This document shows positions 1,931-57,643 of a stretch of DNA of 64,000 bases, in pieces. Position numbers and translations under genes: made by a program. Every line of letters begins with the position of its first letter. The first letter of the stretch is position 1. The stretch covers positions 2,467,036 through 2,531,035 of the forward strand of contig OX335643.1 of the NCBI GenBank assembly GCA_946894095.1, in the 5' to 3' direction. The notes beneath the pieces are model-generated. The model was not told the DNA's origin. It did no database searches and saw nothing but the letters and a program-made list of their open reading frames with translations. Source of the stretch: Incurvaria masculella. Its lineage: Eukaryota > Arthropoda > Insecta > Lepidoptera > Incurvariidae.

Positions 1931-1934
1931 TAAG

Positions 1935-2150: not shown

Positions 2151-2220
2151 ACATACCTGCTTAGTACGAAAAAGTACTTGAACTATAAGTTGCGACGCAA
2201 TAAAAAAAAATTGATAAAAA

Positions 2221-6890: not shown

Positions 6891-6894
6891 AACA

Positions 6895-36400: not shown

Positions 36401-39400
36401 GGGTTTCAACCCACGAACTGGGTCGTTACGTCACAGTGGACGTCATAAGAAGGCGTGGCTTCGCGTCAGTCGCGACCAAATGCCTTGCGACGTTGCAGAC
36501 AGATGGTGCGCAATAATTTTGTTCGTACGGTCAGAAATGTTGATCTCATTATGCGTAATTTTATGTCATTTGGAAATTAAAATTATTTAAATCCGTGCGA
36601 TGGCATAGATTTCAGTTTTTGGTATGTGTTTGAACCATTGACAACATTTCCGGCAGATGGATGTAGCAAAAAAAGTCGGAGCCCCACCATGAAGTGTTGT
36701 TCCGTGACACTGCGCTCTATAGTAATGAGAGCTAAGATTTTCTCAACGACGCTTCTACTCAAAATATCAGGTCTAAAAGAACGGTTTGTCAAAATTCAAA
36801 AGAGATGTTACCAAAGTAAGAACGTAAAATAGTATATTCAAAATGTCATAGAACTCATATTGAACTTTCTAAGGCATTGAGTCGGCCATGGTAGTCCCGT
36901 CTTACGAAATGTAGTCGATTACATACTCTTTGAGAGGTCTATCTCAAAATGTTTGAACTAAATTCTGTGCGTGCACACACTCGAAGAAAATAGTCGTGGT
37001 TCTTGCATTAGGTAATGTTTGTGAAGTAACATACACGTAAGCGAAAGTAAATAAGGTATAACTCAGTTACGCTTGACGTATTGACATAGCGAACTTATTT
37101 TCTATTATAACGACTGCATCAGTGAGAACTTGAATGTAATTTATTTAAAGACACATCCATCAAAGAAACAGCCCTATAAAAATATATATTTTATGAATAT
37201 TTTGCAAGCTTAAAACCGAACCAGCAAAACATACCATTCGCGGGTATTGCGTTTTCCAATTTCGCCACCTGCTGTATAGGTACCCATAATTTGGATTTCT
37301 CCCACAGTCCCTGCTCCCGTAATCAATGCCTCCTAATAACACAGTATTTACTTGCGTTAACATATTGCAGTATATTCATAAAGTAGTTATTTTTACGGGG
37401 CTCTTTCTTAAATTAATGTGTCCTTGCTTGACGGTCGATTAACCATACATCAAATTACCAATAGTAATACGCAAGTACGAAAAAGTATAGTCACTTAAAA
37501 CAATAATGATGTATGTTTTATTACGACGTACGCGTATTGAGGCGGTGATGACATTTACGCAAAAAACAAAATATCGGTTTAATGACCACCAATAGTAAAA
37601 ACTTGACCGGTGAAAAGGCAAGGCAGTGATTATTGACTTAACAGGAGACAAAATGGCAGCAAGTTATTTAATACAAAGACTGAGCATTGCTATCCAGAGG
37701 GGCAATGCAGCTAGCGTGATGGGAACACTGCCATGCGGGTCGCCGCTGGACGAAGTCTTTTACCGTTTTTTCTCATGTTTTTAAATTTATTATTTATTCA
37801 TGTTATCAAATAAATTATGCCCATTAAGGCAGTGATTAAAACTAACATCTAACTGTCAAACGGCGTATTATTCGGCCAAGTGAACTGAAATGTACCAGCC
37901 AGGTAAAAAAGCATCTAAACTTTAGATTTAATCACTCACGTGCCTGTTCACCTGGCTAGTGAATTTACCAGGGTATCTCAGTGTTACAGTTCTTATGTGT
38001 ATTGGGGACTATCGAGAACATCAGGAGTGAGCGAATTCGTAAGCGAACTGACGAATCGGTGCAACCGCCAGTGTATCATTCATCATTATCATTGTATGCA
38101 TTGTATGTATATCATTGTATCAATCATTAAAACGTGGCTACACTCTCGTTCTATCTTAATAAATTAATGCCACGCAACAGGAAAGTTGGAGCAACACGTG
38201 ACGAGTGATAGTAAGCGCGCGGAGTGAGAGTGTTCTCGCCGAACGAGGGTGCGTGCGAGAGTGCCGGCGAGATGGAAGTGTGTCGCGTCAAGTATGCCAA
38301 GGCTGTTGGCGAGACGGCGCATGATGCGGGCGTGGTGCACGGCTCATTGATCATCCGAGCGAAATTATTGCGCCGGTAATAGTTGCCGTACACTGGGACA
38401 GTTTGAGTTTCTTCATTTTCTCGATTAGACGAAGATTACATAATAGGATTCGTCAACTTTTTTCTTTTTCTGCCGGTTCGAGTACCTCTGGCGAAGAAGA
38501 ACCGACTATATAGTTCGCCGGGTTCGCCATTTTTCTCTTTCCCACCTAAAACTTACAAACTAACTAACAGTAGTCCATAGATCACTACTGCTCCTTCCAC
38601 AATGAATTACTAGAAACAGCAAAGTTACAGTACAGTGATACCTAGTAATCGCGCGGAGTGAGAGCGGTCTCGAACGAGAGTGAGAGTGAGTGCGAGAGTG
38701 GCGGCGAGATGGAAGTGTGTCGCGTCAAGTGTGCCAAGGCTGTTGCGTTGCGGTGCATGGCTCATTGATCATCCGGGCGAAATTATTGCACTGGTTATCG
38801 TACCCTAGTCATTCTATCTCGCACATTATAGGCGCGTTCAAAAACTCATAAAAATGCTGCTAAGTGTGGGTGCGGTATTAGCATAACTTATCCAATTAAT
38901 TTTCAGTTTTTTTTTTATGGAACCCGAGAAAGTTGACTTATACCACATAATTACCGTCGATATTGGCTCAATACACCACATTCACGAAAATATTAGTTGC
39001 CATTCCAGGACCTCCCCTTTATGAGTACTTGCACTATTATTAAATGTTAGGACATGGGATGTATATGAATATACTAAATGTATTTATCCCATGATATGAG
39101 CCCGATACACCTCAGGGAACTTGGTGGCATATCGGGCACTTTCTTACTTTGCGCGGCTACTCTGTACCCCATTGTTCATTCAACGCGATGGTCACTAAGG
39201 ATGGCAAACCTACAGTTTTGCATGAAGTCCGAACAATGAACTTAGTAGCCTCTTACTACATCCTAGGGAAGAGAGGCACTGAGACCACGAACTCACTCAG
39301 CGCTATGTAAAAAAAAATGTTTTCATGGTCTGACATTGACTAAACATCTTGACCCAAGCTAAGCTGAGTCGGTGGCCATTGAAGTGTGAATGGAATTGAA

Positions 39401-42400
39401 AGTTATTACCTCATCAAATAGGTAACCTTCCTGATATTCTTTAGTCGTTACATCACAGAAGTGAAGTGATTACGTTCTGGTATTGACATTGGCTTGGGTC
39501 TTTGTTATTTACATTTCTACCGCTTTTGCGAAACCAATTTCAACCACAGAAAATTGAGGTGTCTGTGATGTCAATGATTCATTATGTCATTATTTTATAT
39601 CCAAAACATAGAAGTGCATTAGGGGCTGTAAAGTGGAAGCATTTGCCTTTTCGGAAGGAAAATACATAAAACATGTAATAGTGGCTCTCTGCATATCTAC
39701 TCATGGGATTCTCACCTGGTGAGGTCACAGGTGGGTCACTGGTGACTCACTGGTGGTTCACAGAACTTTCTTTGTGGCTGTCATTTCATGAGGGTACTTT
39801 CATAAGTACGTAAGGGTTGTTAATCACCAGTGAGGGACCTGTGACTCACAGGTGAGAATGAGATTCCTGAGAGCTGTAGATCTCGCGATTCTGTCTTTGT
39901 ATAGCTTGCGCCCCTCGAAACAAAGACTTATTACTTTAATTTTATGTTTCTCACTCGGCAATTACCTAACGCTTTAGGTCTTATCGCAAACACAGTTTTG
40001 TGTCATTTTTGAACATATTTTAAAGTGGATCCGCCATTTTGAAAAACTTTAACGCAGATGAAGCGTTAAATAAATCTATGTAGGTATAATCTTAAACACT
40101 GTGTTAGTAGGAGGCATTCATTACAGGAGGAGAAACTGCAGGAAGATTCCAAATTATGGGTATACAGCATGTGGCGAAATTGGTAGACGCAATACCCGCG
40201 AATGTTATGTTTTGCTGGTTCCGGTCCAGCTTTGCAGTATGCTCGTAAACGGCCACATTCCTTGCTTCACGGCCGATTATGCATCCATACATATCACATC
40301 CATATAATAATCGAACCAGCTCACAATTCACGAGAATCGCTTGAGAAATGCGACCTGTAGATGAGCACAGCCGGAAAGGCGGACGCCCCGGAGAGACTAA
40401 CGAAAGCATTTTTGCACAAGTTGAAACGGAGATGAAACCCTACCGAAATAGAAAAACCGGCCAAGTGGGAGTCGGACTCGCACACAAAGGGTCCGGGATT
40501 CTCTGTTTCAAATTAATAGACAGGCTCCATGATGAGGAGGATGCAACATGACAATGCGCAGTGTTTAATTTGGTAAGATTTACGAAAATTTTAATTTCAA
40601 AATGACTTACAGCTAAATGTAAATCAAGACCGCTGTAGTAAAAAAACAATTAAAAACAAAATTAATTATAAATCTTCATGAAACAAGCTACGTCTGATGA
40701 TTAACCTTTTTAAGATATTTTTATTTCATCGATGAGTAATCTACGTCCAAAGTTATTTTTAAAACGCGCAAAATATTTCATCTTTCGGACCAAATAACTT
40801 AAACACCAAAAGCTATTTTACAATGCCAAATGTCATCAGACATCTAGTTCGATCAAATGAAGCTGATTTGAGTATTATTTTGGATCTCTGACGAGAAATA
40901 TGCCCATGATCTTTTTTCCCCGTTTGTATGGGGAGTTGAGCGGGAAGGCCCACCTTAAGATATTCAGCGCATAAAAGATAAAACCCAAAGCGGAAGATTA
41001 ATTCCAAGGTTGCGTTGAAGATGCTCGGTTGTACAGAATACAAATTGACTAATATTTTAATGATTCTTTATTCACCTGTGATGACTGTTAACTATAAATT
41101 TATTTATCCATCGCATCAATATATTAATTCGTTTTTTAACTTCAGCACATGTTTTAATGTTCATGGACTATGGTAGTTTATCTCTATCTTGTAAGAGGCG
41201 ATATAAATAGCGAAAACACGAAATAAGAAATCATGAAGGGGGAAAAACTTGGCAACATTATACTACAATAACAATGTAAGACGTATACACGCATAGGTAC
41301 TACATATTATTTAGTATTATAAGTATTGACATAGTACAGGGTCGAATTGATCGCGCCGAATTGCTGAACGAGTTGGATTTCAATGTGCCTTGCCGTCGTA
41401 CCCGACACATACCATTATTTCACGTGCCACTTCAACGCACAAACTATGCTGAAAATAAGATATTAACACGTATTACACGAAACTATAATCGTAAGTTCAA
41501 TGAAATTGATATCTTCATCCACACCAAATATACATTTCGAAAAAAAATTATTGAAGCTCTTGTGACACTTGAAGACATTTAAGCATAAATTTAAATAATA
41601 CGAAATAAGCAAAATCATTCATCAATTTCATACATCTTCATTCTCATTCCACCCATATTTATATATTTACATCAAGATGATTTACGCACATACATATACA
41701 TACACACTCTCTCACACACCACACACACCCTCACACAATCTCTCACCATCATAGACGATACAGTTGGAGCACAGTCTTTTTTGTACAAGAAGTGGAAATC
41801 TGTTATTGGCTTATGTTTTGCATTTTTGTCATTGTATAAAAGCTATGTTTATAAAAGCTGTTGATTTCCCAAATAAATAAATAAATAAATAAATACCCCG
41901 AAGAAAATAGAGTTTAGACTGAGCGATCACAGATTATTACCTCTTTCGATTTCTCTACAGAAAAATGCTTAGTTCGGGTCACCATTTTCCTAAAATATGA
42001 TTGAGAGAAGCAATGGCTGTAGTCGGCGTGATGCTCGTGAACGGGTGCTGTTTGTAGCGACTGGCATGCTCCAATTAGCAATATTATGTTAAAACGTTGG
42101 TCACTTAGTACCATATACATAGATTAAAGAAAAATGTGTAGATAGCTAACGTCATACAATGTACAAAACTCGCCGAAAACTTGATTTTGAATTTGAATTT
42201 TGAAGTGATGGAAACGTTACATCTGAACTATTAATTAGGTAATGTTAAAATAATGAATTGCAATGTCAGCTGGGGACTTCTATTATCCCTATTCAACACA
42301 GTATGTCGTAAATCTATGACATAGATAGATAATTTGTCAGCAATTTCAACTGGAAATGTTTTAGTATCTGGTGCCAGACTCTTGGGCTGTCCCTTTTTTT

Positions 42401-45400
42401 ACCCGATTTTCTGGTTGTTGTGACACGGTGTGACTTAATTTAACCATATTATTATCTCAGTGATACTACAAGTATCTACTCCCAGATGCTTGGACCCAGG
42501 GAGGAAAATGACCACAACCTCAAAACCTGTAAGATTGAGAGAGGCCTAAGCCCTGCAGTGGGTGGCACTAGAACGATTTAAGGTGGCCCAACCCGCTCAT
42601 CTCCCCATACAAAAGGGGAAAGAAGATCACGCCCATATTTCTTTTCAGAGATCCAAAATTTTGCTTAAAATAGCTTTATTTGATCGAACTAGATGTCTGA
42701 TGACCATTGGCATTGTAAAATTGTGTTTGGTTTCTAAGTTATAAGGTCCGAAAGTTCGATTTTTTCGCGCGTTTTATACAATAACTTTGGAGGTGGATTA
42801 CGCAATGATAAAGTAAGAAGATCGTAAAAAGATTAGTCATCAGACATAGCTTATTTAATCAATATTTATGATCTATTTGGTTTTTGTTAGATTTTTGACT
42901 ACAGCGGTCGTGGTTTACTTTTAGCTATAAGTCGTCTTGAAATTAAAATTTTCGTAAATCTTACCAAATCATACACTATGCACATTGTCTTTTTTGTGGA
43001 CATGTTGCATCTTCCTCATCACGGAGCCTATCTTATTCTTTGAAACAGAGAAGGTCCCAGAGCGCAACAGCACGGTTTTGTACCGTGCCCGCGAATGAGT
43101 TGGGGCCGCCGGGTTGGGCCACCTTAAGATAAGCTTAGGTTCAAATAGTGTAATTTGTGTGCTAGAAACGCTTAAATATTAAATAATAATAATAATTTTC
43201 TCAGTGTTAACCTGACAACCTGATTTACCTTTCCTTGTGCCATGATGCACCAGTTCGAGCTAGATCCAATCGCGTGTGCAATAGGCCTTGATACACATGC
43301 AACTTTCTACCGCTGCACCGAGCGTTGCAGCATTCAGGCGGAGGAGGAAGGAATGCTCCGGTGCATATCGCTGCGCTCTGTTGCAACAGTGGGACGCCGC
43401 ACTTGCCTCTGGATGTACTAAGAAATATTGTTACGAGCGCGCCATCTGTGGGGCATAGCGCAACTGCGATTACCAAAACGCAAAAACCGTTATCGTGCGA
43501 ACCGAATTTGCTCAACAGATGGCGCGACTTACATGTTTGCATGGCAGCGCTAACATCTCTGGAAATGAAATGAAATGAAAATATTCTTTATTGCTTACAA
43601 CTATTTCATAGTATGCAAAGGCGAGCTTATTGCCAAAGGCAATCTCTAACAGCTAACCTTAATATTAGAAAATATATCTCTTCGGTCTGACGAAACAGGA
43701 AATCATGGAACATTCGAGATACTCCAGAGTGGTTATCATAGCAAATTTACTCGTCGGGTGAGCCGACACGTAAGTGATTAAATCTGACTTTTTGCAAAGT
43801 TTAAAAAGCTTAGCAGTCCCATTCGGGAGAATGTCCAAAATTAAATAATGGCGTGACCGATGTTGTTGAAATTTTCAGGTAATCTTCAGATTACCTCACC
43901 TAGTAGATGGTAAATTAAGAAATAATAAAAATACTATCAATATGAATAGCAAGATTGATACGTAGATATAATGTGAATATCTCATTAAAATATGTAAAAC
44001 CTCGTGCATTGAAGTCTAAAGCTGCGTGCATCACATACTGTTGTTGTATCACATACTGTATCAAGTGAGTACAGCGACCTGCCGCGTGGGGGGCGCTGCT
44101 CGCAGTGGGCTTGCGGGCAGCTGTGCATAAGTAGTGAGTATGTCGGCACAGAATATAACGTTAGCGCAAGCTTCAAACGAACAAACGAGAATGGAGTGAA
44201 CGGAGGAAACTACATTTAAAATATCAACTACATCAAAATAATCCCCCAAGATCAACACGCTTGCGAAAATATGGATATGCCAGATGACAACTGAATATAC
44301 TAGATTGCTAGGAGCAGACGTATGACACCTTGTCAGACGACTGTCGGCCGACGAGCGCCACGTCACGTGGTGGGTACCTTATAGGTTTGCTAAACGAGTG
44401 AGAAAATATAAATAAAAAAAAGCTATATACTGGAAAATGAAGCAATACCAAAACGTCCGCTCGTCCGTTTGACTCGAACTCGACAGCCCGGCTGTTTTAC
44501 TCGCAATGTAGATAACGGAGGTGAAGAAATTATCCTCCATGACGCAGATGGACTCGAGTTTTGACGACACATAAGGACTCCAATTAGTGAAACGAGAATT
44601 GTGCGTTCCGAATTCGTAAGCAAACTAAGTACCATCATGACAATATGCATAACTACGACATCAGCTCTGGTGAATGTCCAAAACGAAATCGGCACGAGCG
44701 GAGTCGGGAACTACAGCTAGTCGATTCATTCCATTCCTCATTCACAAAGTGAACATATTTTTGGTCTTTTGCTTTGGCTAAAAATGAATGCGTGGTGTAC
44801 GCTCAAACATTAGTAGCGGCATTGTTTGATGAAACTCATTCAGCTATTTGACTCAAGTTTCGTCACTTTTTGAAGTCCGCAGTTCGCCACCTAAGTAAAG
44901 GCGACTCGATTATCACTTTTGATACAGAAAGGCATTAAAAAACAAGCTTTTTAAGTTAATAGTCATAAAGAATGTCTACGGCCATGTGTGGATGCATATT
45001 CATCATGTCACAGAATATTTGTAGGCACGATTGACGATTTGATAATAAGTGGGTCGTCGTAACCTTGACCTGAAGAGCTCACTGGTCAGTCAGTGGGGAG
45101 GCGATACTGGGTGGATTTAAGACACTGGGCTCGGTGCTTTCCAAATCTTTTTTTTGCTTCAAATTAACTATCTGCTTGGATTGCTGAAATTGATTTTTAC
45201 GGAGAATACTCTCTGGAGCTGCAAACCCATCCTCTAGATAATGTAATACCACAGGGCATGTGGCGTAACTAGCGCAAGACCCGAAAGCAAGGAGATCTAT
45301 GTCTTTCAAAGACACAAAGGAAATTGAATTATCGACGTTGTCGCAACCGGCGAATGCCGCCCGATTGGAAACGTTTGTCATATTGTAATGTTCTCTGATT

Positions 45401-48400
45401 GTTAACGTGAATATGTAGAATGTGAGTGTTTATTGCAGGTAATGTTGCAATGGATGACCCGGTCGTCAGAATGACACGTTCCTTGACCGCATACGCTTGG
45501 GTTATATTGTACCTGCAACCGCTCCCACGTTTCGCAATGTTAAATGCTGTACGATGTAAAATACATTTTGATAATTCTGTAGATTTTCCTATCAGATGCA
45601 TCCTCGAGATGGTTTATGATTTATTCAAATGTGCAGGATCCTTCAAATTTGTTTGGTTCATGGTTAAACCTTATCGACATCAGTAGGTTATCTATCTTCC
45701 TATTTACCTACGTATTGTATTGGTCCAGCGCAGTAGTGATGTCACACCACCGAAAATAAATATTATTTAATTAGTATAGTTTTGATGCCATCCCAATGAA
45801 CAAATAAGGCTAATTTTAATTCATTTCAATTTTTTTAAACGTTTGGGGGTCGAAATACACTAAGCTACGTCACAAACTGATAGATCCGCAGATTCGATCA
45901 ACTCAGTAAGGAAGAATCCGCAAATAAACTTTACTGATTACGGTAGCAAGTTGTCTAATCAAAGTAAGGGTCCTTGTATTGCGGAATGCGAGGTAATGGG
46001 TTCATGACGACGCGAACTACCCATGTCCAGTTACATGGTATATTGAATTAAGAACAGTGAGTTCTAGAGCGAGAGCGTCTTTGCACGGAGGATAGAGGGA
46101 GAGAGGAGATGTTTTAACACATATTACTAAGGATCGCAGCGAGACACTGTGCGGGGAAGCGGGGGGAAAATCGCTTCATGGTGGGGTCATGGGGGGGTCA
46201 TGCACCGCCCATTTTTGCGAAATCCATCTTCCGGAAGAATCGATATTCTGGTAGCAGCTATTCCGAGAGCTATTCTAAGTGGTTTTATTTAAATCTATGC
46301 CTTCGCGCGGATTCAAATAATTTTAATTTAAAAATGTCAATAAAATTTGCATCATGAGATCAACATTTCTTACCGTAAAACGAAAATTATTGCGCGCCAT
46401 CTATCAGCACATAGCAAGAGCGATACATCGATACCATGCTCGAATATTGACTCAAATTAAAAAGTATGAGGTGTTTTACTGACAAATAAAACGTAATTCC
46501 ACCTACAAACTTTAGATTATTTTGTCCTGTATAATGTTTGCTACATTTTATACAAAATCTCATCCTGTAATCGACTATTCGCCGAAAATTGCGCAGCAGA
46601 CCATAATATTGTCCCACAACCTAACACCGCCAGCGCCATGTCGCGAATGTCGCTAAGCCACGCCTTCTTTATCACGTGGGCTGTGACGTAGCGACCCACT
46701 TGGTGGACACAGACCCAGTTTGCTTAGACCATCTCCTCTCTACCTCTATCCTCCGTGGTCTTATGTGACCTAATAGAGTATATGTTTAGTTTTCAAATGA
46801 AAATATGTTCTAAACTTTTAAAAATAATATTAAACTCTTCCAAAAATATGCACTAGAAGAGCTCTGAATATAATAATATCTAAAACGGAAACGTGAGACC
46901 CTACTAATTACATTTTTTGCCCATGCAGCTGTTCGACAAAGTGAAGGCTCTCCGCGGAGGCACGGATCACCTCATCAAGAAGCTAGACATAGTGGGAGGC
47001 GACTGCAGCGCCGCCGACCTGGCGCTGAGCGAGACCGACCGCGCTCGACTCATCGAGACCGTCGACTTCATCATTCATGCCGCCGCCACGATCAGGTGAG
47101 TGGGTGTGCTTTCCGAGTGTATCCAATGAGACGGTCACTGAGGAATAGGCGACCTCTCCAAGAAGCTCAACATTATGGGAGGTGACTGCAGCGACGTTAG
47201 CCAGGCGCTGAGAGAACCCGCTCGACTCATGGTGACCGCCGATTTTATCATCCATGCCGCTGCCGATATCAGATAAGTGTGTACGCCCTTGAGTGTATCC
47301 AACGCGACCATCACTGAGGAATAGGTGATCTCACCGAGAAGCTCAAAATTATGGGAGGTGACTGCAGCAACGTCAACCAGGCGCTGAGTGAATTCGATGA
47401 CATTCGACTCATCGAGATGGTCGACTTCATCATCCTTGCCGCCGCCACGATCAGATGAGTGTGCGTTCCTTCAGGGTTTATCCAACGCGACGGTCACCGA
47501 GGAATAGGCGACCTGACCAAAAAGGTGTATATCCCGGAAGAAGGCTGCAGTGCCGTCGACATTATGCTGAGCGAAGCCAACTGCTCTCTACTCATCTATT
47601 ACCCCTCGCAGGGGATGGGAACCTAAAGTTTTGCATGATTCTTTCTTAATTCTCTCATTTATGACATCATTCACATATCCATCATTGAAACAGATACAAA
47701 TTGGCGTTTGAACGGTGTGCAGACTCAACCCATAGGCTCTGGCAAGGAAAGCGAGGCTCTCTCTGTCTTCCGACAGGCCCCTGAACTAAGAGCCTGTCGG
47801 TATTGCCACTATCAAGTAATTGTTAAAGGTCTACACAGACTCACCAATAAGGTAGAGACTTCGCCGTTGGACTGGAGTCTTGCCAGTTAAAAAGTGGGCA
47901 AGAAAACAGAACATTGATTTTCAAAGAAAGGTTTCATATTTGCATGTTAGAAAGCGTATAAATGGATCGATTTAGTTATCAAGCGTAACCATTTAATTGA
48001 CTGTTGCAGATTCGACGAGGAATTGAAAAAGGCTGTGCTGCTGAACACACGCGGGACCAAGCTCATGTTGGAACTGGCGAAGGAATGCAAGAAGCTCCAG
48101 GTGATCTTTTTAATATATCCTGAGAATATTTGTAGATTATTAGTTGCTTTAAAAACCTTAGAAATTGAAATCTATGCCTTCGCGCGGATTCAAATGATTT
48201 AAAAAAATGTCATTAAAATTTGCATCATGAGATCAACATTTCTTACCGTAAAACGAAAATGATTGCGCGCCATCTATCGGCACATAGTAAGAGCGATACA
48301 TCGATACAATGCTCGAATATTGACTGAAATTTTAAAATATGACGTGTTTTATTGACAAATAAAACGTCATTCCACCTACAAACTTTAGATTAATTTGGCA

Positions 48401-51400
48401 TGTGTGTGTTTACACAAAATCTCATCGTGTAATCGACTGTTCGCCGAAAATTGCGCCGCAGACCATAATATTGTCCCACAACCTAACACCGCCAGCGCCA
48501 TGTCGCGAATATTGCTAAGCTACGCCTTCTTTATCACGTGGGCTGTGACGTAGCGAACCACTTGGTGGACACAGACCCAGTTTGCTTAGACCATCTCCTC
48601 TCTACCTCTATCCTCCGTGCATACAACGCACTGAAAAAAATATATGCAACTGTTTACTGTTTCAGCACAGTTAAAATTCAGTCATTTATGGATAAGTATT
48701 TCTCATTATTATTTATTCACGGCAAGCCGATGAACTAAAACAGTATTTAACCATAGTTTAAACCAATTGAACAGTATCGCTTGGTGAAAAGAACATGTAA
48801 TGATTTTGTATGTTAACTGATTCAACATTACGGCTGACTACAAACTGTCCCGTTTCAAGAGGTACAGGAATGTTAATAGATTGAAGAGTACCTTTTCACT
48901 GAATAAAACACGTAAGTGAAAATGGAAAAAATACTCACGCTAGAAACAGTTTTGACACAGTTAGAGAAACAGTAAGAGAAAATAGTAATGGCAAATAGTT
49001 AAAAAAACAATTAAAAGATACAGTAACATTAAATGTGTAAGTCTAACCGTTTTCACTCAGTGTAACCGATTTACTTAGTTGGCTCTATTTTAACGTTGCA
49101 AGACGGTTGTTATTATTGGAATTACAGTTAGATTCACTGATTATTTTATTCAATGCACATATTGGCACAATAGCCAGATTTTTATTCAAAGTATTGATAG
49201 CACTTAATCAATTTAAGATCTTTCTTAATGTTTCAGCAGTTCGTGCACGTGTTCACTTCCTATTGTCACCTAGCATCCTTACTGGCACAATATCAATAAA
49301 GCTGTTTCTTAATGTTTCAGCAGTTCGTGCACGTGTCCACTTCCTATTGTCACCTAGCATCCCTACTGGCACAATATCAATAAAGCTGTTTCTTAATGTT
49401 TCAGCAGTTCGTGCACGTGTCCACTTCCTATTGTCACCTAGCATCTCACTGGCACAATATCAATAAAGCTGTTTCTTAATGTTTCAGCAGTTCGTGCACG
49501 TGTCCACTTCCTATTGTCACCTAGCATCCCTACTGGCACAATAACAATAAAGCTGTTTCTTAATGTTTCAGCAGTTCGTGCACGTGTCCACTTCCTATTG
49601 TCACCTAGCATCCCTACTGGCACAATATCAATAAAGCTGTTTCTTAATGTTTCAGCAGTTCGTGCACGTGTCCACTTCCTATTGTCACCTAGCATCCCTA
49701 CTGGCACAATATCAATAAAGCTGTTTCTTAATGTTTCAGCTGTTCGTGCACGTGTCCACTTCCTATTGTCACCTAGCATCCCTACTGGCACAATATCAAT
49801 AAAGCTGTTTCTTAATGTTTCAGCTGTTCGTGCACGTGTCCACTTCCTATTGTCACCTCCAGGAGAAGTTGCTGGAGGAGAGGCCGTACCCGCCGCCGGC
49901 GGACCCGGACGCCATCATCCAGTGCATGGAGTGGATGGACGAGGCCACAGTGGCTGCGATCACTCCGCAGTAAGTTTCGCAGGGTCCGCGTGGAATTGAA
50001 CACCTGGAGAAGAAACATTTGTAATTCTATACGATCAGAAAAGATTGTTTTAAGGCGGCCCAACCCGGCGGGCCTAACTCATTCGCGGGCACGGTACAAA
50101 AACGTGCTGTTGCGCTCTGGGACCTTCTATGTTTCAAAGAATAAGACAGGCTCCGTGATGAGGAAGATGCAATATGTCCACAAAAAAGACAATGTGCATA
50201 GTGTATGATTTGGTAATATTTACGAAAATTTTAATTTAAAAACGACTTATAGCTAAAAGAAAACCACGACCGCTGTAGTAAAAAATCGAACAAAAACCAA
50301 ATAGATTATAAATCTAGATTAAATAAGCTATGTCTGATGACTAATCTTTTTAAGATGTTCTTACTTTATCATTGCATAATCCACCTCCAAAGTTATGGTA
50401 TAAAACGCGCGAAAAATGCGAACTTTCGGACCTTATAACTTAGAAACCAAACACAATTTTACAATGCCAATGGTCATCAGACATCTAGTTCGATCAAATA
50501 AAGGTATTTTGAGCAAAATTTTGGATCTCTGACAAGAAATATGGGCGTGATCTTCTTTCCCCTTTTGTATGGGGAGATGAGCGGGATGGGCCACCTTAAG
50601 GTGGCCCAACCCGGCGGCACTAACACAATCGCGGGCATGGTACAAAACCGTGCTGTTGCGCTCTGGGAACTTCTGTTTCAAAGAAAAAGACAGGCTCCGT
50701 GATGAGGAAGATGCAACATGTCCACAAAAAAGACAATGTGTATAGTGTATGATTTGGTAAGATTTACGAAAATTTTGTACCGTGCCCGCGAATGAGTTAG
50801 TCCCGCCGGGTTGGGCCACCTGCGTAAATGTAACCGATTTCGTCGTTCATTTCAGCCTCCTGAACAAGCTGCCGAACTCGTACGCGTTCACGAAGGCCCT
50901 CTCGGAGGGGCTGGTGGTAGAAGCGATGAAGGACATACCCGCTGTCATTCTTCGTCCTTCCATTGGTGAGTTTCCTAATCTATCTTAATATAATAAAGAT
51001 GAAGACTCTTCAAGAAGAGTCTTTTTTGATAGCTTAGAATAACTAAGGAATTGCGATGGTTAGTAAGGCTGATATAGTTTATCCTATCCAACCCCAATAA
51101 TTGTGTCAATGTAAAAAATGCATGAAACCTGCTGAATATATAGATTTCGTTCTAAATTACGAGAAATAAAATGTTAACTCGACTTTTACCGCGAGTGACG
51201 CATACTAATGAATTCTTTAATGTCCCTGTAAATAGTAATAATAATAATAATAATAAAAATCTTAATAATCTTAATAAAACAGTTTACAAAACGCGGACCG
51301 AATGCCAAAATGCATTCTCTTTCTACCTACTCTTGTAATAGTTTTGGAATTAAACTGGATTCGATTTATTGCAAAGCTATAAAGGATATACGGAATTTAT

Positions 51401-54400
51401 CCTTCCACCTAATAAGTAAGGAAACAATTTAAAGCTGCATCCGAGCCACGAGAGGTGGATTCCACTTCACCTTAGTCGGCTCATAATGCATGCTCGGAAA
51501 GAAATACCCAATTGTATTAGTCCTATATGTCATTGGTATGGCTTTCGTGATTTGCAATGATAACTTTTTCGCCCACTAGGTGGCAGTGTTAACATTTTTT
51601 CATTTTAAATCTTCAGTTATCCCGATCTGGCAAGAGCCCATTCCTGGATGGACCGACAACATCAACGGACCGACTGGACTCCTCATCGGTAAGATAGAAT
51701 ACCAAAGAAGAAAGATAGAAGAAGATACGACACTTGTAACATGGATGTAGAAATATTAGCAATATTGGAAATCCGACGGATTTCAAAGGAGTCTGTTCAT
51801 TAGTTGTACAACAAAATGTATCCATCTTTTTTGTTTCAAATATGTCCATGAATATCTAGCTAACGTTTGGATCATAACTCCGTTAACACCTTTTTTTAGG
51901 GTTCCGTACCCAAAGGGTGAAAACGGAACCCTATTACTAAGCCTCCGCTGTCCGTCCGTCTGTCACAGGGCTGTATCTCATGAACCGTAACAGGTACCTG
52001 AAATTTTCACAAAGTATGTATTTATTTTGCCGCTATAACAACAAATAGGTAAAATAAAAAAAATATAACAATTAAAGGGGGGCACCATACAAAAAACGTG
52101 ATTTTTTGGCGTTGATGTTACGGAACCCTTCGTTTGCGAGTCCGACTCGCACTTGGCCGGTTTTTTTATGCAACCTGAGATGGATGAGCAAGCCTCGGTG
52201 GCCCAGTGGCGCGACACTTCGGCGATCGCTCTCCGAAGTTAAGCAACGCTGGGTCCGGTCTGGTCTTGGATGGGTGACCATTCGACCGTTGAGAGAGGCT
52301 GGCCGTGGTTCGGATTCCACGTTAAGCTGTAGGTCCCCTTCCTTACTTACTAGGTGGTAGGGTTTATCCCGCCCGGGTTGGTACCATCGCATTGGATGAA
52401 CGATGGTCGAAGCGGCAATGAAAATTGTCCGTGTTTTCCATCCAGTTCAATGTAGCCGTGCAATATAAGGAAGGTCCTGGCATGGCACCTAGTTCCCATG
52501 TGGTGTGTTTGGCTAATACCATGACAGAACTTGTGGTATTAGCCATCCATGTCCAGTCACATAAAAAAAAAAAAAAAACAACTACCGTTATGATATTAGC
52601 CTAATACACCACATTCCCGAAGGAATTAAGTTCCATGCCAGGACCTTCCCGTTATGAGCACGGCTACATTGAACTGGATCGAAAACACGGTCAATTTTTA
52701 TTATCGCTTCGACTATCTTTTCATCCAATGCGATGGTACCATCCCGGGCGGGCTTAAACCCTACCTTCTAGTAGGGGAAGGGGACCTACAGTTTTACATG
52801 GATTCCGAATCATGGAGCAGCTCGCATTCGTGACGAAATAAACTCAGAAAGAGAAAGAAAGTGGTGCATGAACAGAGCAAGGATTTAAACCCAGACCTCT
52901 GGTATGCTAGGCAAGTCCCCGCGCCACTAGGCTACGACCCGCTCCAAGAGAATTATAAAGAATATTAAAACTCTATACTTTAACATTCGTGTGTCGTCGT
53001 TTCTCGTTTACGTTCATATTGTTCTCTAGACAGTTTAAATTTATAGTTATTAATTACGCTTGACGTTTGGATTTTTTTAAACTATTTTAAAGTAGATACA
53101 AAACAATGATAAAGCTATAGATTTGTAGTTTTAAGTATGATATATATGTTTTACGGATTTTTAGTATTTATGAATAACTCAACTAAGTATATTTTTCACA
53201 AAGTGCTGATTTATATTGATCGACACTTAAAGCGCCTTTATTACTAAATTGCGGATTATCTTGTACTGGTATCGAAAGCAAGATGTTAAGAAAGGCCCTT
53301 TAATGTACGGATTAAGCCAATCAGTACTGGGTGGAAGAGACCCTAAATGCCCTTAAATCGTCGGCGTTTCTCGTTTTGAGTCCCGTTTACGCCTTAAATG
53401 CATTTTCAGGTGCCGGCAAAGGTGTGATCCGCACGATGTACTGCCAGAGCAACGGCTACGCCGACTTCCTGCCGGTTGACGTCTTCGTCAACGGCCTCAT
53501 GGTGTGCATGTGGAACTACATCGCCAACAAGTGAGCGTTTAGCTTTGTAAACAGCTTAGAACGCTAAAAACCAATTTTCAGAAATCAAAGGGATTTTCTC
53601 GTCAGAAAAGTAGCAATATTTGTAATTTAATTCAAGCTTCAAACATTTTTGTCATCCTTCCGTTCAACAGTTATTATAAACTAGCGAGGAACCTGGCTTC
53701 GCTTAGTTCAATGTCGTTTCAGATTGATGTCGGGCTGAACCTAACAATTTATGTTATATGAGTTCCCCGTACAAACTTTCGTCCCCTCTTTCACTCCCTT
53801 TAAGTTATTTTTGCCACAATTGGTAGTTTATGTCCTTTCCTAGGCCCTCTCTACACCAAATGTAATTAAAATTGGTTCAGCAGTGCAGGCGTGACAGACA
53901 GACAGAGTTACTCTCGCATTCATAATATTAGTATGGATAGCATGGATTACCATGCAATATTTTTAAGTCTCATTTTGATAAGAAAACATTCGACATATGT
54001 AATACGTAAGAGTCAAAGCTTAGACTTTAAACATAATTTTGCTGTTTGGCACTGGAGTATCCGTATGCAATAATTATCTCAGTAACATTTTAAAATTAAC
54101 CTCCTGTAGCAAATTTTGGAAAAAGCTGGAATATAAGTAATTGTGTGTTCTTAGGGACACAGAGAAGACCGTGTACAACTTCACATCCTCGGCGGAAGTG
54201 AAGGTTTCATGGTCGGAGATGATCGAGACGGGACGCGAAATCATCATGAACCGCGTGCCACTCAACGGAGTCGCCTGGTTGGTATTATTTTATTTTATCA
54301 TTATTTACAGTATACATTCAATGCATCTTAAACTGAATTTACCTTAAGGAGGTCCCACCGGAGACAGATCCTAGAAGACCGCTCCGAGCTACAAATAAAT

Positions 54401-57400
54401 AAACCTCAGAACGATTCTGGTGTTCGAGAGCAGAACCTAAAACTGAATTCAATCATATGCAGAGATTCATAGACGTTACTCGTACTTGACTAAGCCAAAG
54501 TATGACTACTTTGACTCAACCAGGTACGAGTAACTTCTATGATTCTCAGCATTAGGGAGTTCCCACGTGGGAAATCTCTTAGAAGACCGCTCCGAGCTAC
54601 AGAGACGGAAACCTTCGAAAGATTGTCGTGTTCGAGAGCAGAATATAAAACTGGATTTAACTTAGGGAGGTCCCACCCGGAAGAAATCCTAGAAGGTCGT
54701 TCCGAGCTACAGAGAAAGAAACCTCCGAATGATTCTCGTGTTCGAGAGCAGAACCTAAAACTGGATTTAACGTTAGGGAGGTCCCACCTGGGACACGTTC
54801 TAGAAGGCCTCTCCGAGCTACAGAGAAAGAAACCTAAGATCGATTCTCGTATTCGAGAGTAGAACCGCTTTCTGCATCTGGAATCTGGGCACACTTCCAA
54901 ATTCTGCTAAATTCTATATGTTTTGGCATTTTGTTTTAAACAACGCCGTTCTAAGATTCGTTCTAAGATTAGCACGATGGTTAATTTCCGTGCACGCTAC
55001 ATTACGATAATCTCGTGGGCCAGGTATTCAGTTTCTCATTTTCAGCCTTGTCAAGGTTTTCGTCATGTGGTATTGTAATGTCTACTTATCTCGTTGGTCT
55101 TGGCATCGACCATGGCAATATCAGGCTTTTTTTCTTTGAAACCTGAACACCCGATATGATCCCGACATAACCGATTTTACGCTGGACTCAGTTGGAGCCT
55201 TAATGTTATTAGCCTTATACACCACATTCCCGAAGGAATTAAGGCCATGCCAGGACCATCCTTTTATGAGCACGGTTACACTGAACTGGATGGGTGATTT
55301 TCCATAGCCCCTTCAACCATAGTTCAAGCCAATGCGGTGGTACCTCTCTCTCCCGGCTCTATTACTAGATGGCGCGGGTTTCGCATATTGATCCTATGCT
55401 AAGGCATTTTGACTGCAATGGTTAAAATATCAACCTATGCTATCGTCACCAAAGTCGACTTTTGTTTGATTTTGGTATCGGTTATTTCTAGTGTTGATTG
55501 TTTCTCTCCAGGTACCCTGGCGGGTCCATGAAGCACTCCAGACTGCACCACAACATCTGCGTGTTTCTCTTCCACCTGCTACCTGCCATATTCGTCGACA
55601 CCTTGCTCTTCTGCCTCGGCTACAAGCCCGTGTAAGTCATGTTACTCAGTCGCTTCTATTTATTTTTCTTTATAACGGTAACTATTTCATTTTTCAATTA
55701 AACAAATTGTGACACATAGAAAACTGTCCTTTTCTGACTGCGTTCAAAATCAAATAAAATATTTTTCTATTAATTTGTATTTCATTTATGTAAGCTTTTG
55801 GCGGTCAAACTACACTAGTTACGTCACAAACGGATAGATATGCTGATTTGATTAAAGCACTAAATAAGAACTCGCCAAGATATGTTTATATATTTTTTCC
55901 GTCCACAATATGTATTATTTGTATTGTATGTTAGTGGGTATTTCATTGTCTCTCTAACTCTAGATCTAAATGCTAATACCACACAATTGTTCGGTTGAAC
56001 AGTTTAACACAAAGAAAAAAAATGAAACAGCAACCCTCGGCGTATGTGGATTCATTGGTTTTTCATTCAGGAAAATTATCTTGTTACAGGCTGATGCGGG
56101 TCCAACGTCGAGTCAATAAGGGATTTGAAGTGTTCGAGTACTACGCCAACAACCAGTGGGACTTCCAGTCCAACCATGTTCAGGACTGTCGCCAACGCAT
56201 GAACAGCAGGGAACGACGTGATTACAAGATCGACTCCGAAGGTAGGCGCAGGCATATTATTCGTCTGCTAAGCTAATTAGCAGTGGGATTTTCAGTCGGA
56301 CCCCGCACAGGTCTGTCGCCGAATTTGGCGCTGGCTTTTTTTTCGTATGCTATGGTAACAAGCCATGGGATTAGAGCACATACAGTTCTGTCGCCAGCGC
56401 ATGAGCTGACCACTTGAACAACTCATAAGTTGGTCTTGAAATTCTCACATTTCTTTCCTTGAAAGCCCTTTCTTGTGCTTCAAGTGCTGATTTATTTTAA
56501 TTTACACTTAAAAGGTCTTTATTAATAAAGTGCTGATTATCTTGTTTTGGTATCGATTGCGAGATGGTAAGAAAGGCCATTTAATGTGAGGATTAAACTA
56601 ATCAGTACTTGGTGGAAGGGACCCTAAGACAACTACTTAATCAACTCCGAAGTTGTCGCTGGCATTTTTTTGTGCTACGCTAACAAGACGTGGGATTTTC
56701 TGTTCTGTCGCCTCCGAAGTTGGCGCTGGAATTTTTTTGCATAGCGTAGCATAACGCTAACAACCCGTGCGATTAGACCGCAAACAGTTCTGTCGCCGGC
56801 GCATGAAGTGACCACTTGAAAAACTCCTAAGTTGGCCATGGCATATTGTTCGTGTGCTACGCTAACACGCTGTTTTCGCAGGTCTGGACATCTCCAACTA
56901 CTTCGAGGACTGCATCAAGGCAGCCAGGATTTACATCCTGAAGGAGTCCGAGGACACCCTGCCTGCCGCGCGCCGCCACATGTTTGTGTGAGTGTTTACC
57001 TGCATTATTCTGTGCACATTTAGAAGAATATGTGACAGGCGGTTCTTACCAGCGAGTAATCGGCTTGCATGGTGCCTCCCTGTTTGGCTACCTTTGGTGC
57101 ATCGGCACAGGTATCCTCAACTAGTTTGGATCTAGTCGTAGAAAAAAAACGACGTACTTGCTTAGTACGAAAAAGTATACTCACGCTGCATGTTTATTTT
57201 AACCCGAATATGTTAAGGAAAAATTGCTGACGTAGTACAAGTGTTGAATAGGGACAATAAAAGTCAACAGATGGCGTTGCAATTCACATTTGAAAATTTG
57301 GAATGCAGCTTAGTTTAATAACGGTGTAACTAGTTCTCGCAGTGACGGGAGATGGCGCTCGTTAGAAATGTCATATTAACGGCGAAAATAAGAAGTATTT

Positions 57401-57643
57401 AGCGCGTTTTGCACGTTGTATGACTATTCCTACTATCCTTTGTCTATGGTAAAGAGAAGCTCCTCAATGCAAATGTGTTGTTTCACACAATTTTTTTTTC
57501 ATTACAGGATGTGGATTGTGGACCGCGTGTTCCAGCTCGTCTTCTGGTCGGCCATGCTCTATTGGCTGGGCGGATACTTCGTCTCTTTCTATAGGTCTCT
57601 GTCCACGCCTATCGCCGGCGCACTTCCCGTGCGCGACATGTAG
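33317..57643 (+). CDS. Fatty acyl-CoA reductase, 13 coding exons, 524 aa
   Basis: Reduces long-chain fatty acyl-CoA to fatty alcohol with NADPH; the family acts at the ER or peroxisome in wax, cuticle-lipid and pheromone synthesis. The exons are 33317-33453, 35617-35710, 46929-47095, 48010-48100, 49824-49969, 50856-50965, 51617-51688, 53410-53530, 54155-54277, 55512-55631, 56090-56241, 56882-56987 and 57508-57643. They sum to 1575 nt and stay in frame. The Rossmann motif TGGTGFLG is at residues 30-37, the catalytic Ser at 169 (HVSTSYC), and Tyr221/Lys225 lie in YAFTK. The block [15 protein letters not shown] follows, then the C-terminal FAR_C (sterile) domain. Hydrophobic segments lie near 368-390 and 488-508. 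Length matches the usual 500-540. All introns are GT-AG. It resembles the CG5065/waterproof-type insect FARs, but the exact subclade is not resolved. Confidence 0.95.
33698..34134. mobile_element. hAT-type MITE in FAR coding intron 1
   Basis: Terminal inverted repeats CAGTGGCGTAAC / GTTACGCCACTG are flanked by CTTCCTCG and CTTCCACG, a 7-of-8 match to an 8-bp target duplication typical of hAT elements. Inside, 33820-34040 looks like a LINE 3' end in reverse, with a (TTTA)n tail at 33824-33855. Confidence 0.7.
34183..34330. repeat. Dispersed repeat T, copy 2
   Basis: Almost identical to 25076-25226. Confidence 0.65.
34900..35210 (+). mobile_element. tRNA-headed SINE in FAR coding intron 1
   Basis: Head GCATCTCGTAGTTCAGGGGC and GGCATGGTTCAAATCTCCGC, then the full shared body (TGTAGGTCCCCTTTCC, GTGGTAGGGTAAAGCCCGC, TTCAATGTAGCCGTGCTCAT, GGCACTGGCATGGTAC). 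Near full length. Confidence 0.65.
35617..35710 (+). CDS. FAR exon 2
   Basis: Follows TTGTTTCAG and encodes [20 protein letters not shown] and on to FSSP (residues 46-77). Donor CCCCG/GTAAGT. The LLVR.KKG pattern is standard after the Rossmann motif in FARs. Confidence 0.92.
36147..36370. repeat. Foldback with ~80-bp arms
   Basis: Left arm 36147-36231 and right arm 36291-36370 pair through ACTTCTTTCCGACG and CCACCACGTTGCGGACATC, with a ~60-bp GC-rich centre. In FAR intron 2. Confidence 0.75.
36391..36560 (-). repeat. Partial inverted copy of the 460-bp repeat U
   Basis: Shares AGCAAACTGGGTTTC-like, TGACGT-rich and GCGCAATAATTTTG blocks with 46289-46757 read in reverse. More diverged than the two direct copies. 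Confidence 0.45.
37205..37450 (-). mobile_element. SINE-like repeat with tRNA-Leu-like head, copy 3
   Basis: On the minus strand the head reads CAGGTGGCGAAATTGGAAAA with GAATGGTATGTTTTGCTGG downstream. The left flank (GAGGCATTGATTACGGGAGC) matches copies 2 and 4. A direct tail copy follows at 37410-37440. Confidence 0.6.
38203..38393 (+). repeat. GC-rich duplicated segment in FAR intron 2, copy 1
   Basis: A CpG- and GAGAG-rich block with a 35-codon ORF at 38272-38379 (begins [10 protein letters not shown]). Copy 2 begins 437 bp downstream. Its composition contrasts with the AT-rich intron. Whether it is an alternative promoter or first exon, or a repeat, is unresolved. Confidence 0.55.
38634..38810 (+). 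repeat. GC-rich duplicated segment in FAR intron 2, copy 2
   Basis: Shares GAGATGGAAGTGTGTCGCGT and GGCTCATTGATCATCCG with copy 1, but a deletion cuts the ORF to 19 codons. Confidence 0.55.
38990..39300 (-). mobile_element. Two degraded inverted SINE fragments
   Basis: TACACCACATTCACGAAAAT and CCATTCCAGGACCTCCCC at the left, and CATTCAACGCGATGGTCACT with ACCTACAGTTTTGCATG at the right, follow the shared SINE body in reverse. Confidence 0.45.
39301..40048. other. FAR intron 2, no gene
   Basis: 39715-39870 contains a small imperfect inverted repeat around CACAGGTGGGTCACTGGTGA / TCACCAGTGAGGGACCTGTG. Nothing coding is seen. Confidence 0.4.
40049..40310 (+). mobile_element. SINE-like repeat with tRNA-Leu-like head, copy 4
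   Basis: GTGGCGAAATTGGTAGACGC at about 40170, CGCGAATGTTATGTTTTGCT and a slightly altered B-box GGTTCCGGTCCAGC. Flanks as in copy 2. Confidence 0.65.
40440..40958. mobile_element. Chimeric MITE family M copy 3
   Basis: From about 40500 to the TTAA at 40955-40958 it matches family M. The left end is replaced by ACCGGCCAAGTGGGAGTCGG, the terminus of another lepidopteran repeat seen at 52125-52150. Confidence 0.6.
41355..41920 (+). pseudogene. LINE C-terminal remnant and 3' tail
   Basis: The short ORF to 41582 encodes [30 protein letters not shown] and a basic end, the pattern of LINE ORF2 C-termini. The 3' UTR includes a CA/CT-rich stretch (41690-41750) and ends in (AAAT)n at 41873-41897. The RT core is absent. 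Confidence 0.6.
41941..42080 (-). repeat. Dispersed repeat R, partial inverted copy
   Basis: Reverse of the 5610-5690 part of repeat R, around ATGCTCGTGAACGGGTGCTG. Confidence 0.6.
42525..42570 (+). repeat. RTE-like LINE 3' end fragment
   Basis: GAGAGAGGCCTAAGCCCTGC followed by AGTGGGTGG resembles the conserved 3' end of lepidopteran RTE-type elements. Confidence 0.4.
42578..43127. mobile_element. TTAA-flanked MITE family M, copy 4
   Basis: TTAA at 42578-42581 and 43124-43127 with ends GGTGGCCCAACCCG / GGGTTGGGCCACC. A complete copy of 550 bp in FAR intron 2. Confidence 0.8.
43562..43690 (-). mobile_element. LINE 3' end fragment
   Basis: GAAATGAAATGAAATGAAAA followed by TATTCTTTATTGCTTACAAC and GCAAAGGCGAGCTTATTGCC is the reversed 3' end of a common lepidopteran LINE. 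Confidence 0.55.
43691..44690. other. FAR intron 2, no gene
   Basis: GC-richer patches (44070-44130, 44330-44380) lack ORFs with recognisable motifs. Confidence 0.3.
44691..44721 (+). mobile_element. Helitron 3' terminus
   Basis: GGCACGAGCGGAGTCGGGAA then CTAGT at 44717-44721. The 5' limit is not seen. Confidence 0.45.
44722..45839. other. FAR intron 2, no gene
   Basis: Several short overlapping ORFs on both strands without motifs. No repeat recognised. Confidence 0.3.
45840..45940 (+). repeat. Dispersed repeat S, copy 2
   Basis: Matches 15640-15750, including GATCCGCAGATTCGATCAAC. Confidence 0.5.
46289..46757 (+). repeat. Repeat U, direct copy 1 (upstream of FAR exon 3)
   Basis: About 460 bp nearly identical to 48166-48619 in the same orientation. 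Both start near TCTATGCCTTCGCGCGGATT and end CTCTACCTCTATCCTCCGTG. No ORF. Probably a transposon or a segmental copy. Confidence 0.8.
46929..47095 (+). CDS. FAR exon 3
   Basis: Follows CCATGCAG and encodes residues 78-132 plus two bases: [22 protein letters not shown] and [12 protein letters not shown]. The IVGGDC and [11 protein letters not shown] stretches are typical FAR motifs. Donor CAG/GTGAGT at 47096. Confidence 0.93.
47145..47611 (+). pseudogene. Three tandem decayed copies of FAR exon 3
   Basis: Units of 176-183 bp follow exon 3, each opening near AGGAATAGG (47141, 47317, 47500). Copy 2 (47150-47272) reads [16 protein letters not shown] ... [10 protein letters not shown] in frame. 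Copy 3 (47326-47454) reads [16 protein letters not shown] ... [10 protein letters not shown] in frame. Copy 4 (47509-47611) is more diverged. The donors after copies 2 and 3 are ATAAGT and ATGAGT, so both have lost the G of GT, and no good acceptor is seen before any copy. They are pseudo-exons in the intron between exons 3 and 4. Confidence 0.85.
47612..48009. other. Rest of FAR intron 3
   Basis: No repeat or gene recognised apart from a short SINE-like patch (GGGGATGGGAACCTAAAGTT) at 47612. Confidence 0.35.
48010..48100 (+). CDS. FAR exon 4
   Basis: Follows CTGTTGCAG and completes R133, then encodes [20 protein letters not shown] to KKLQ (residues 133-163). Donor CCAG/GTGATC is weaker than the others. 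Confidence 0.92.
48166..48619 (+). repeat. Repeat U, direct copy 2 (downstream of FAR exon 4)
   Basis: See copy 1 at 46289. Together the two copies bracket exon 3, its decayed copies and exon 4. Confidence 0.8.
48620..49187. other. FAR intron 4, no gene
   Basis: AT-rich with no recognised repeat. Confidence 0.3.
49188..49858 (+). repeat. 84-bp tandem array spanning the exon 5 splice acceptor
   Basis: Eight copies of ..TTTCAG then (C[AT]G)TTCGTGCACGTG begin at 49237, 49321, 49405, 49488, 49572, 49656, 49740 and 49824. Spacing is 84 bp except one of 83. Each unit holds 49 nt of intron end (branch-like CTTAAT, pyrimidine tract, AG) and the first 35 nt of exon 5, ending TCCTATTGTCACCT. Only the last unit continues into the rest of the exon. 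In the exon 5 frame every upstream unit meets a TAA 20 codons later. Confidence 0.95.
49824..49969 (+). CDS. FAR exon 5 (catalytic Ser)
   Basis: Uses the eighth and last acceptor of the array. Encodes [25 protein letters not shown] and [14 protein letters not shown] (residues 164-211 plus two bases of His212). Donor CGCA/GTAAGT at 49970. Confidence 0.92.
50050..50599. mobile_element. TTAA-flanked MITE family M, copy 5
   Basis: TTAA at 50050-50053 and 50596-50599. Complete copy in FAR intron 5, inverted relative to copy 4. Confidence 0.8.
50596..50820. mobile_element. MITE family M, copy 6, internally deleted
   Basis: Starts at the TTAA shared with copy 5. After about 170 bp it jumps to the opposite end (TACCGTGCCCGCGAATGAG to GTTGGGCCACC). 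Ends 35 bp before FAR exon 6. Confidence 0.75.
50856..50965 (+). CDS. FAR exon 6 (YxxxK)
   Basis: Follows GTTCATTTCAG. Encodes [20 protein letters not shown] and AVILRPSI with catalytic Tyr221 and Lys225. Donor CATTG/GTGAGT. Confidence 0.94.
50966..51616. other. FAR intron 6
   Basis: Contains an (AAT)n microsatellite at about 51235-51258 and a small hairpin GACTCTTCAAGAAGAGTC at 51003. No gene. Confidence 0.5.
51617..51688 (+). CDS. FAR exon 7
   Basis: Follows AATCTTCAG. Encodes [20 protein letters not shown] and GLLI (72 nt), the diagnostic FAR block. Donor ATCG/GTAAGA. Confidence 0.94.
51898..52155 (+). mobile_element. Common lepidopteran repeat (GGGTTCCGTACC type)
   Basis: Begins GGGTTCCGTACCCAAAGGGT and ends GAGTCCGACTCGCACTTGGC followed by CGG. 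The beginning carries a short hairpin, GGGTTCCG / CGGAACCC. Confidence 0.65.
52186..52570 (+). mobile_element. 5S rRNA-headed SINE
   Basis: The head carries the 5S rRNA internal promoter: CTCCGAAGTTAAGCAACG, GGGTCCGGTCTGG and CTTGGATGGGTGACC. The shared lepidopteran SINE body follows from about 52312, ending in a poly(A) run at 52562-52578. Too diverged and fused to be a 5S gene. In FAR intron 7. Confidence 0.8.
52580..52950 (-). mobile_element. tRNA-headed SINE, inverted
   Basis: On the minus strand the tRNA-like head (GGGTCGTAGCCTAGTGGCGC, then AGACCTCTGGGTTT-like T-arm context GGGTTTAAATCC) lies at about 52880-52948. The full body follows and ends TACACCACATTCCCGAAGG on the + strand. Tail to tail with the 5S-headed SINE. 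Confidence 0.75.
53410..53530 (+). CDS. FAR exon 8
   Basis: Follows CATTTTCAG. Encodes [20 protein letters not shown] and [11 protein letters not shown] (residues 273-312). Donor CAACAA/GTGAGC. Confidence 0.93.
53680..53937 (-). mobile_element. Short Helitron in FAR intron 8
   Basis: Reverse-oriented: CTAGT end at 53684-53680 after a decayed hairpin, and start near CATACTAATATTATGAATGC at about 53937. Confidence 0.6.
54155..54277 (+). CDS. FAR exon 9
   Basis: Follows GTGTTCTTAG. Encodes [20 protein letters not shown], then IETGREII and NGVA (residues 313-353). Donor GCCTG/GTTGGT is non-consensus; it is the only one that keeps WYPGG in frame. Confidence 0.9.
54343..54872 (+). repeat. ~110-bp minisatellite in FAR intron 9
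   Basis: Four units start at about 54343, 54552, 54661 and 54773; each opens TTAGGGAGGTCCCAC (or a variant) and includes GCTCCGAGCTACAGAGA and GTGTTCGAGAGCAGAA. Units 1 and 2 are separated by ~100 bp of other sequence. Confidence 0.8.
55195..55355 (-). mobile_element. SINE body fragment, inverted
   Basis: ACACCACATTCCCGAAGGAA, CATGCCAGGACCATCC and GAGCACGGTTACACTGAACT. Confidence 0.6.
55512..55631 (+). CDS. FAR exon 10 (first C-terminal hydrophobic segment)
   Basis: Follows TTTCTCTCCAG. Encodes [15 protein letters not shown] and the hydrophobic [19 protein letters not shown]. Donor CCCGT/GTAAGT. Confidence 0.93.
55775..55880 (+). repeat. Dispersed repeat S, copy 3
   Basis: Matches 15640-15750 and 45840-45940 with more decay. 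Confidence 0.4.
56090..56241 (+). CDS. FAR exon 11
   Basis: Follows TTGTTACAG. Encodes [29 protein letters not shown] and DYKIDSE (residues 394-444). Donor GAAG/GTAGGC. Confidence 0.93.
56242..56881. other. FAR intron 11 with small internal duplications
   Basis: Exon-11-like phrases recur after the exon: CAGTGGGATTTTCAGTC (56282), TCTGTCGCCAGCGCATGA (56387) and TCTGTCGCCGGCGCATGA (56791). They echo the exon's CAGTGGGACTTCCAGTC and TGTCGCCAACGCATGAAC, so the intron holds decayed partial copies of exon 11. Confidence 0.5.
56882..56987 (+). CDS. FAR exon 12
   Basis: Follows CTGTTTTCGCAG. Encodes [20 protein letters not shown] and PAARRHMF. Donor TTTGT/GTGAGT. Confidence 0.93.
57508..57643 (+). 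CDS. FAR exon 13 (terminal)
   Basis: Follows TTTTTTTCATTACAG. Encodes [20 protein letters not shown], a hydrophobic anchor and a C-terminus LPVRDM, stop TAG 57641-57643. Confidence 0.94.

Follow-up and report, generated by a model that had tools for sequence, protein, structure and literature searches.

In a fatty acyl-CoA reductase (FAR) gene of Incurvaria masculella, the intron 4/exon 5 boundary is present in eight tandem copies with a period of 84 bp, and only the last copy leads into the rest of exon 5. The array, which lies in the window (the whole stretch of DNA that was analysed, 64,000 nucleotides), is one instance of a process seen repeatedly in this genome at exon edges in FAR and P450 genes. 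On balance, we lean towards the reading that a recurrent minisatellite process acts at exon edges and is tolerated by splicing, and that the seven upstream acceptors are by-products rather than selected regulators.

The reading frame of the FAR gene is open across 13 exons (Table 1), some of whose ends were placed by eye from the reading frame. The 478-aa conceptual protein without exon 1 matches the Pfam families PF07993 (2.4e-67) and PF03015 (3.6e-28), and the best protein matches, at 73–74% identity, are FARs of Manduca and Bombyx with a CG5065-like annotation. In an alignment of 22 relatives, the identity to CG5065-like lepidopteran proteins is 68–73%, with two more distant proteins at 64%. 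A protein of the caddisfly Arctopsyche is 65% identical to the window FAR. By both its domains and its similarity, the predicted product is a CG5065-type fatty acyl-CoA reductase. Exons 4 and 5 join in phase 0, and the resulting protein has no gap relative to the 22 aligned relatives. Elsewhere in the window, positions 61859–61960 on the minus strand weakly resemble the C-terminal part of FAR proteins (41–44% over 34 aa) and may be a remnant of a further FAR gene.

Table 1. Positions of the FAR gene, its arrays and the arrays at other loci (window positions unless a locus is named; a slash marks the splice junction)
Feature	Position	Strand	Details and basis
FAR gene, 13 exons, NAD_binding_4 + Sterile	33317..57643	+	reading frame, tblastn with FAR proteins
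FAR exons 1–4	33317-33454, 35617-35710, 46929-47095, 48010-48100	+	
FAR exons 5–8	49824-49969, 50856-50965, 51617-51688, 53410-53530	+	
FAR exons 9–13	54155-54277, 55512-55631, 56090-56241, 56882-56987, 57508-57643	+	
Exon 4, upstream partner of all eight acceptors	48010..48100	+	donor CAG/GTGATC
Productive exon 5, 146 nt, copy 8 acceptor	49824..49969	+	donor GCA/GTAAGT; in frame with exons 4 and 6; alignment with 22 FAR proteins
Tandem array, eight copies of intron 4/exon 5 boundary	49221..49858	+	TRF, copy alignment, genome search
Seven decoy acceptors	49237..49823	+	stop after 18–24 codons from each
Decayed tandem copies, 3' part of exon 3 and donor	47138..47600	+	blastn; TRF 176 bp x 3.1; alignment
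Decayed exon 11 pieces and donor, intron 11	56260..56860	+	blastn, repeat families D2-D4, alignment partly by eye
L040 FAR paralogue	C3:1932001-1940000, sense 4066-6938	-	170 bp x 16.9, 17 GTACGT donors
L039 FAR paralogue, donor array	C3:2557001-2566000, sense 1979-3762	-	224 bp x 8.0, GTGAGG, 7/8 donors intact
L039 FAR paralogue, next array	C3:2557001-2566000, sense 4627-6828	-	178 bp x 12.4, 12 identical acceptors
L041 FAR paralogue	C3:5221001-5229000, 2741-4196		246 bp x 5.9, exon 1 and donor in six copies
L018 FAR exon, donor-edge array	C3:5233498-, 1723-2222		114 bp x 3.4
L043 P450 exon array	4369-5137		181 bp x 4.2; Pfam
L049 P450 exon array	1110-1524		162 bp x 2.6; Pfam

TRF finds 7.6 copies of the 84-bp period with 98% matches (score 1227), and units of 84 bp at this identity are not the result of chance. 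The first exonic bases at the eight acceptors are 49237, 49321, 49405, 49488, 49572, 49656, 49740 and 49824, exactly as the first-pass annotation had placed them, and the spacing is 84 throughout, bar a single 83. The array had been drawn from 49188; the repeat itself begins at 49221, and the first ~33 bases of that interval are non-repeated flank. Each repeat unit comprises 16 nt of the intron 4 end and 35 nt of the exon 5 start, with a 33-nt spacer between copies. In copy 1, the flank before the final 16 intronic bases differs from that of the other copies, and the 33-nt spacer that precedes the other acceptors is missing. A genome-wide search (552 Mb) with the 84-bp unit gave eight matches, every one of which falls in this array.

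The copy alignment shows that TTTCTTAATGTTTCAG is kept in all eight copies. Copies 7 and 8 do not differ at any position from -49 to +35, and the sole difference of copies 3 and 6 from copy 8 is at +2, where A replaces T. The acceptor reads CAG/CAG, a NAGNAG, in copies 1–6 and CAG/CTG in copies 7 and 8. The 11-residue stretch with the catalytic Ser, which was said to be encoded in every copy, is retained in seven of the eight; in copy 1, the Ser within VSTSY is replaced by Phe. The near-identity of the copies bears out the view that the array is young or homogenised.

Splicing of exon 4 to any of copies 1–7 leads to a stop codon, which leaves the last copy as the productive acceptor. The stop comes after 20 codons in copies 1, 2, 5, 6 and 7, as had been estimated for all decoys, and after 18 and 24 codons in copies 4 and 3, respectively. 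The description of the seven decoys as apparently intact also holds. The length of exon 5 is 146 nt from the acceptor of copy 8, 230 nt from that of copy 7 and 733 nt from that of copy 1. Nonsense-mediated decay (NMD) applies where a stop codon precedes an exon junction by more than about 50 nt. For each of copies 1–7, the stop has this geometry and lies 167–670 nt upstream of the next exon junction, so NMD of the decoy transcripts would be expected.

The array has no donor comparable to those of the gene. By a simple consensus count, the best GT within it fits five of the nine positions of MAG/GTRAGT, and eight of the nine gene donors scored reach 6–9; the ninth, that of exon 9, gave 3 in a reading shifted by one base. 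With no comparable donor in the unit, the decoy acceptors would merely extend exon 5 into a stop, and new introns between the copies were discounted. In Dscam-type mutually exclusive arrays, each unit is a whole exon that has its own acceptor and donor. The FAR array is like these in that exon sequence stands in tandem copies, and unlike them in that its unit has an acceptor and no usable donor; mutually exclusive exons were rejected because the 84-bp unit holds an acceptor only, not a complete exon. Docking-selector pairing was also rejected, as none of the seven inverted-repeat pairs of at least 12 nt in 48090–50860 has an arm inside the array.

Similar arrays are found in FAR paralogues. 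A search of the same genome with the FAR protein gave 75 matches (82 of 155 candidates scored), some of which form evenly spaced series at further FAR genes of the same contig. In L040, 17 donors match exactly, and an 18th near-match with 5 mismatches is spurious; the real copy comes first. Blocks of sequence variants reappear through this array, which suggests that several units were duplicated at a time. Each copy in L041 contains the ATG, the TGGTGFLG stretch and the donor, whose GT is present in the real copy and in five decoys. In L018, the donor GTAGGT stands in the real copy and in two further copies, and the two most distant copies read ATAGGT and CTAAGT.

Exons of P450 genes carry arrays too. 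TRF detected three arrays with a period of at least 60 around P450 genes (12 stretches, 106 kb). Those of L043 and L049 are tandem P450 exons, which encode I-helix and heme-binding parts. L042 (277 bp x 1.9) resembled a P450 exon on visual inspection and was discarded, as it has no Pfam match. The L049 stretch was picked with knowledge of a close pair, and the remaining eleven P450 stretches were not so picked. Because L049 was chosen in this manner and L039–L041 for repeated exon matches, no frequency is obtainable from these loci. Five arbitrary stretches (35 kb) contain no array with a period of at least 60, and the 21 matches to AMP-binding exons (12 of 147 candidates scored) include no tandem series, both samples being too small for a frequency. 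Arrays that are not exonic are also present, such as a GC-rich short-unit array in L027 and one of 55 bp x 2.1 in L040, and we make no claim that arrays are specific to exons. The arrays in FAR paralogues and P450 genes indicate that the window array is not the device of one gene, and the P450 exons led us to reject a FAR-specific device.

The conservation of the decoys was compared with a neutral expectation across five young arrays. The decoys were compared with the consensus of their own array, and the expected losses were computed from the substitution rates of the units. The GT or AG is kept in 45 of the 46 decoy sites, and the single loss seen compares with 1.31 expected. Since the losses match mutation alone, the intact decoys are no sign of selection, and their intactness was rejected as proof of it.

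In the reading that we favour, a stretch made up of the last part of intron 4 and the initial 35 nt of exon 5 was duplicated in tandem, and the unit was multiplied and kept homogenised, as the sequence shows, probably in this order. When a tandem duplication spans an exon edge, the additional copies always come to lie towards the intron, so that the productive site gives the shortest exon. Exon 5 lies between long introns (1723 nt for intron 4 and 886 nt for intron 5), which should give the last acceptor the advantage in recognition across the exon. Splicing to the decoys would be a minor loss cleared by NMD. A study of human data reports that the smallest recognition unit is favoured, and with long introns this unit spans the exon (PMC9225289). 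The same study also reports that, taken together, human 3' sites are biased towards the upstream acceptor, a preference that is reduced, not reversed, between two long introns (PMC9225289). The tolerance argument rests on the FAR gene being intact.

A crude branch-point scan gave the best score to copy 1, a decoy (TTAAT at -30, score 8.0), and 6.0 to copies 7 and 8; the productive acceptor is the weakest of the 12 acceptors scanned. The score of copy 1, the upstream-acceptor preference in human data and the poor splicing of duplicated strong 3' sites in vitro (PMC5389562) speak against our preferred reading; the published evidence points in both directions. Copy number beyond two would alter the output very little if the acceptor chosen is the one that gives the shortest exon, or the one that gives the shortest intron. 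Copy number would act as a dial only under equal competition or concurrent occupancy of the sites.

Equal competition would be leaky: the acceptors would be near equal, about 1/8 of the transcripts would be productive and the rest would go to NMD, with a load, mild or serious, carried by drift. We hold this to be possible but unlikely. The identity of copies 7 and 8 over -49 to +35 means that no local signal in this stretch separates them, and human acceptors of similar strength with long introns are described as having no strong downstream bias (PMC9225289), both of which favour such competition. However, the exon lengths vary fivefold (146–733 nt), so the copies are unequal in context, and the open frame through the exons found argues against a dying gene.

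Concurrent occupancy is the more doubtful of the two. U2AF and U2 snRNP on several acceptors at once would slow the splicing of intron 4, in which case copy number would set the speed and the decoys would rarely be joined. A precedent exists in a globin substrate, in which both copies of a duplicated strong 3' site were bound, splicing was poor and a competitor oligonucleotide rescued it (PMC5389562). The precedent is limited to two sites and mammalian extract, however, and the weakest branch-point candidate of the 12, by the crude score, at the productive acceptor makes strong double occupancy uncertain.

The first-pass annotation had raised a possible copy-number rheostat, in which array length would differ between individuals and tune FAR output via NMD. 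The geometry permits it, and a human intronic VNTR in TERT is reported to affect splicing and NMD (PMC11830802), but like arrays occur at several FAR and P450 loci and the intactness of the decoys fits the neutral expectation. These observations do not support a tuning of FAR output by the array, and we consider a selected rheostat improbable. An assembly artefact is least credible, since the assembly consists of 552 Mb in 31 contigs, the copies differ in an ordered way (A at +2 in copies 1–6 and T in copies 7–8, one 83-nt unit and private changes) and several unrelated arrays exist.

The array has partial parallels in known systems. Like the potato RdRp gene, it is a tandem duplication of the 3' end of an intron and the start of the next exon. 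In potato, a two-copy tandem duplication across intron 1/exon 2 copied the branch site, the pyrimidine tract and the acceptor, and a cryptic donor GTAAG made a new intron; an 83-bp tandem duplication inside the intron of that gene is reported as well (PMC4974935). Unlike this two-copy case with its cryptic donor, the FAR array has eight copies without a comparable donor. A duplication across the boundary, as in intron gain by duplication, is thus present, and a donor in the copied exon piece is absent. As in duplicated 3' splice-site substrates (globin, PMC5389562; Reed and Maniatis 1986, as cited in PMC9225289), identical acceptors compete for one donor; those substrates were engineered with two sites, whereas the present arrays are natural, the FAR array having eight acceptors and one paralogue as many as 17 donors.

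The TERT intron 6 repeat VNTR6-1 is similarly an intronic tandem repeat tied to splicing choice and NMD, but it is a 38-bp G-quadruplex repeat whose unit, as described, has no splice site, and both its polymorphism and its effect are proven (PMC11830802). Copies 1–6 of the FAR array read TTTCAGCAG and in this respect are like NAGNAG tandem acceptors, which lie 3 nt apart and have a common branch point (PMC2875228), whereas the sites of the FAR array lie 84 nt apart. A literature search, in which few subscription papers were covered, brought up no paper on exon-edge arrays of more than two copies with intact splice sites.

The interest of these arrays lies in their recurrence. The choice among equal splice sites has so far been studied with engineered two-site duplicates, and the natural genes described here have 6, 8, 12 and 17 near-identical sites, of which the productive one is always nearest the rest of the exon. 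The arrays form a natural dose series for splice-site competition. Junction counts in the array genes would tell directly whether sites are chosen exon-first or intron-first, and would show if exon-edge tandem repeats are a hidden source of expression differences. We give rather little credence to a broader proposal, that this lineage amplifies exon edges into donor or acceptor arrays of 6–17 copies in working genes and that copy number lowers or slows productive splicing through occupancy or decoys. If it were true, the genome would be such a dose series, and FAR output would be one of the traits to change with the length of an array. Should the process be common in the lineage, it would also bear on gene annotation, which stacked exon fragments can confuse.

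Older, decayed copies of exon edges are also found in the FAR gene. Downstream of exon 3, three copies derived from it (47152–47282, 47330–47472 and 47545–47596) have 76–78% identity, and its donor CAG/GTGAGT is changed to CAG/ATAAGT and CAG/ATGAGT in the first two. The piece at 56260–56320 is 72% identical to exon 11, whose donor GAAG/GTAGGC is replaced by GAAGTTG in the pieces that extend that far. The lost GT is common to several copies of these decayed arrays, which implies few events, so that no conclusion on selection is drawn from them. Intron 9 contains a ~110-bp repeat in four copies (54325–54881; TRF 110 bp x 2.9) that is derived from no exon seen. By eye, the segments 46294–46765 in intron 2 and 48171–48610 in intron 4 resemble each other and probably represent a dispersed element.
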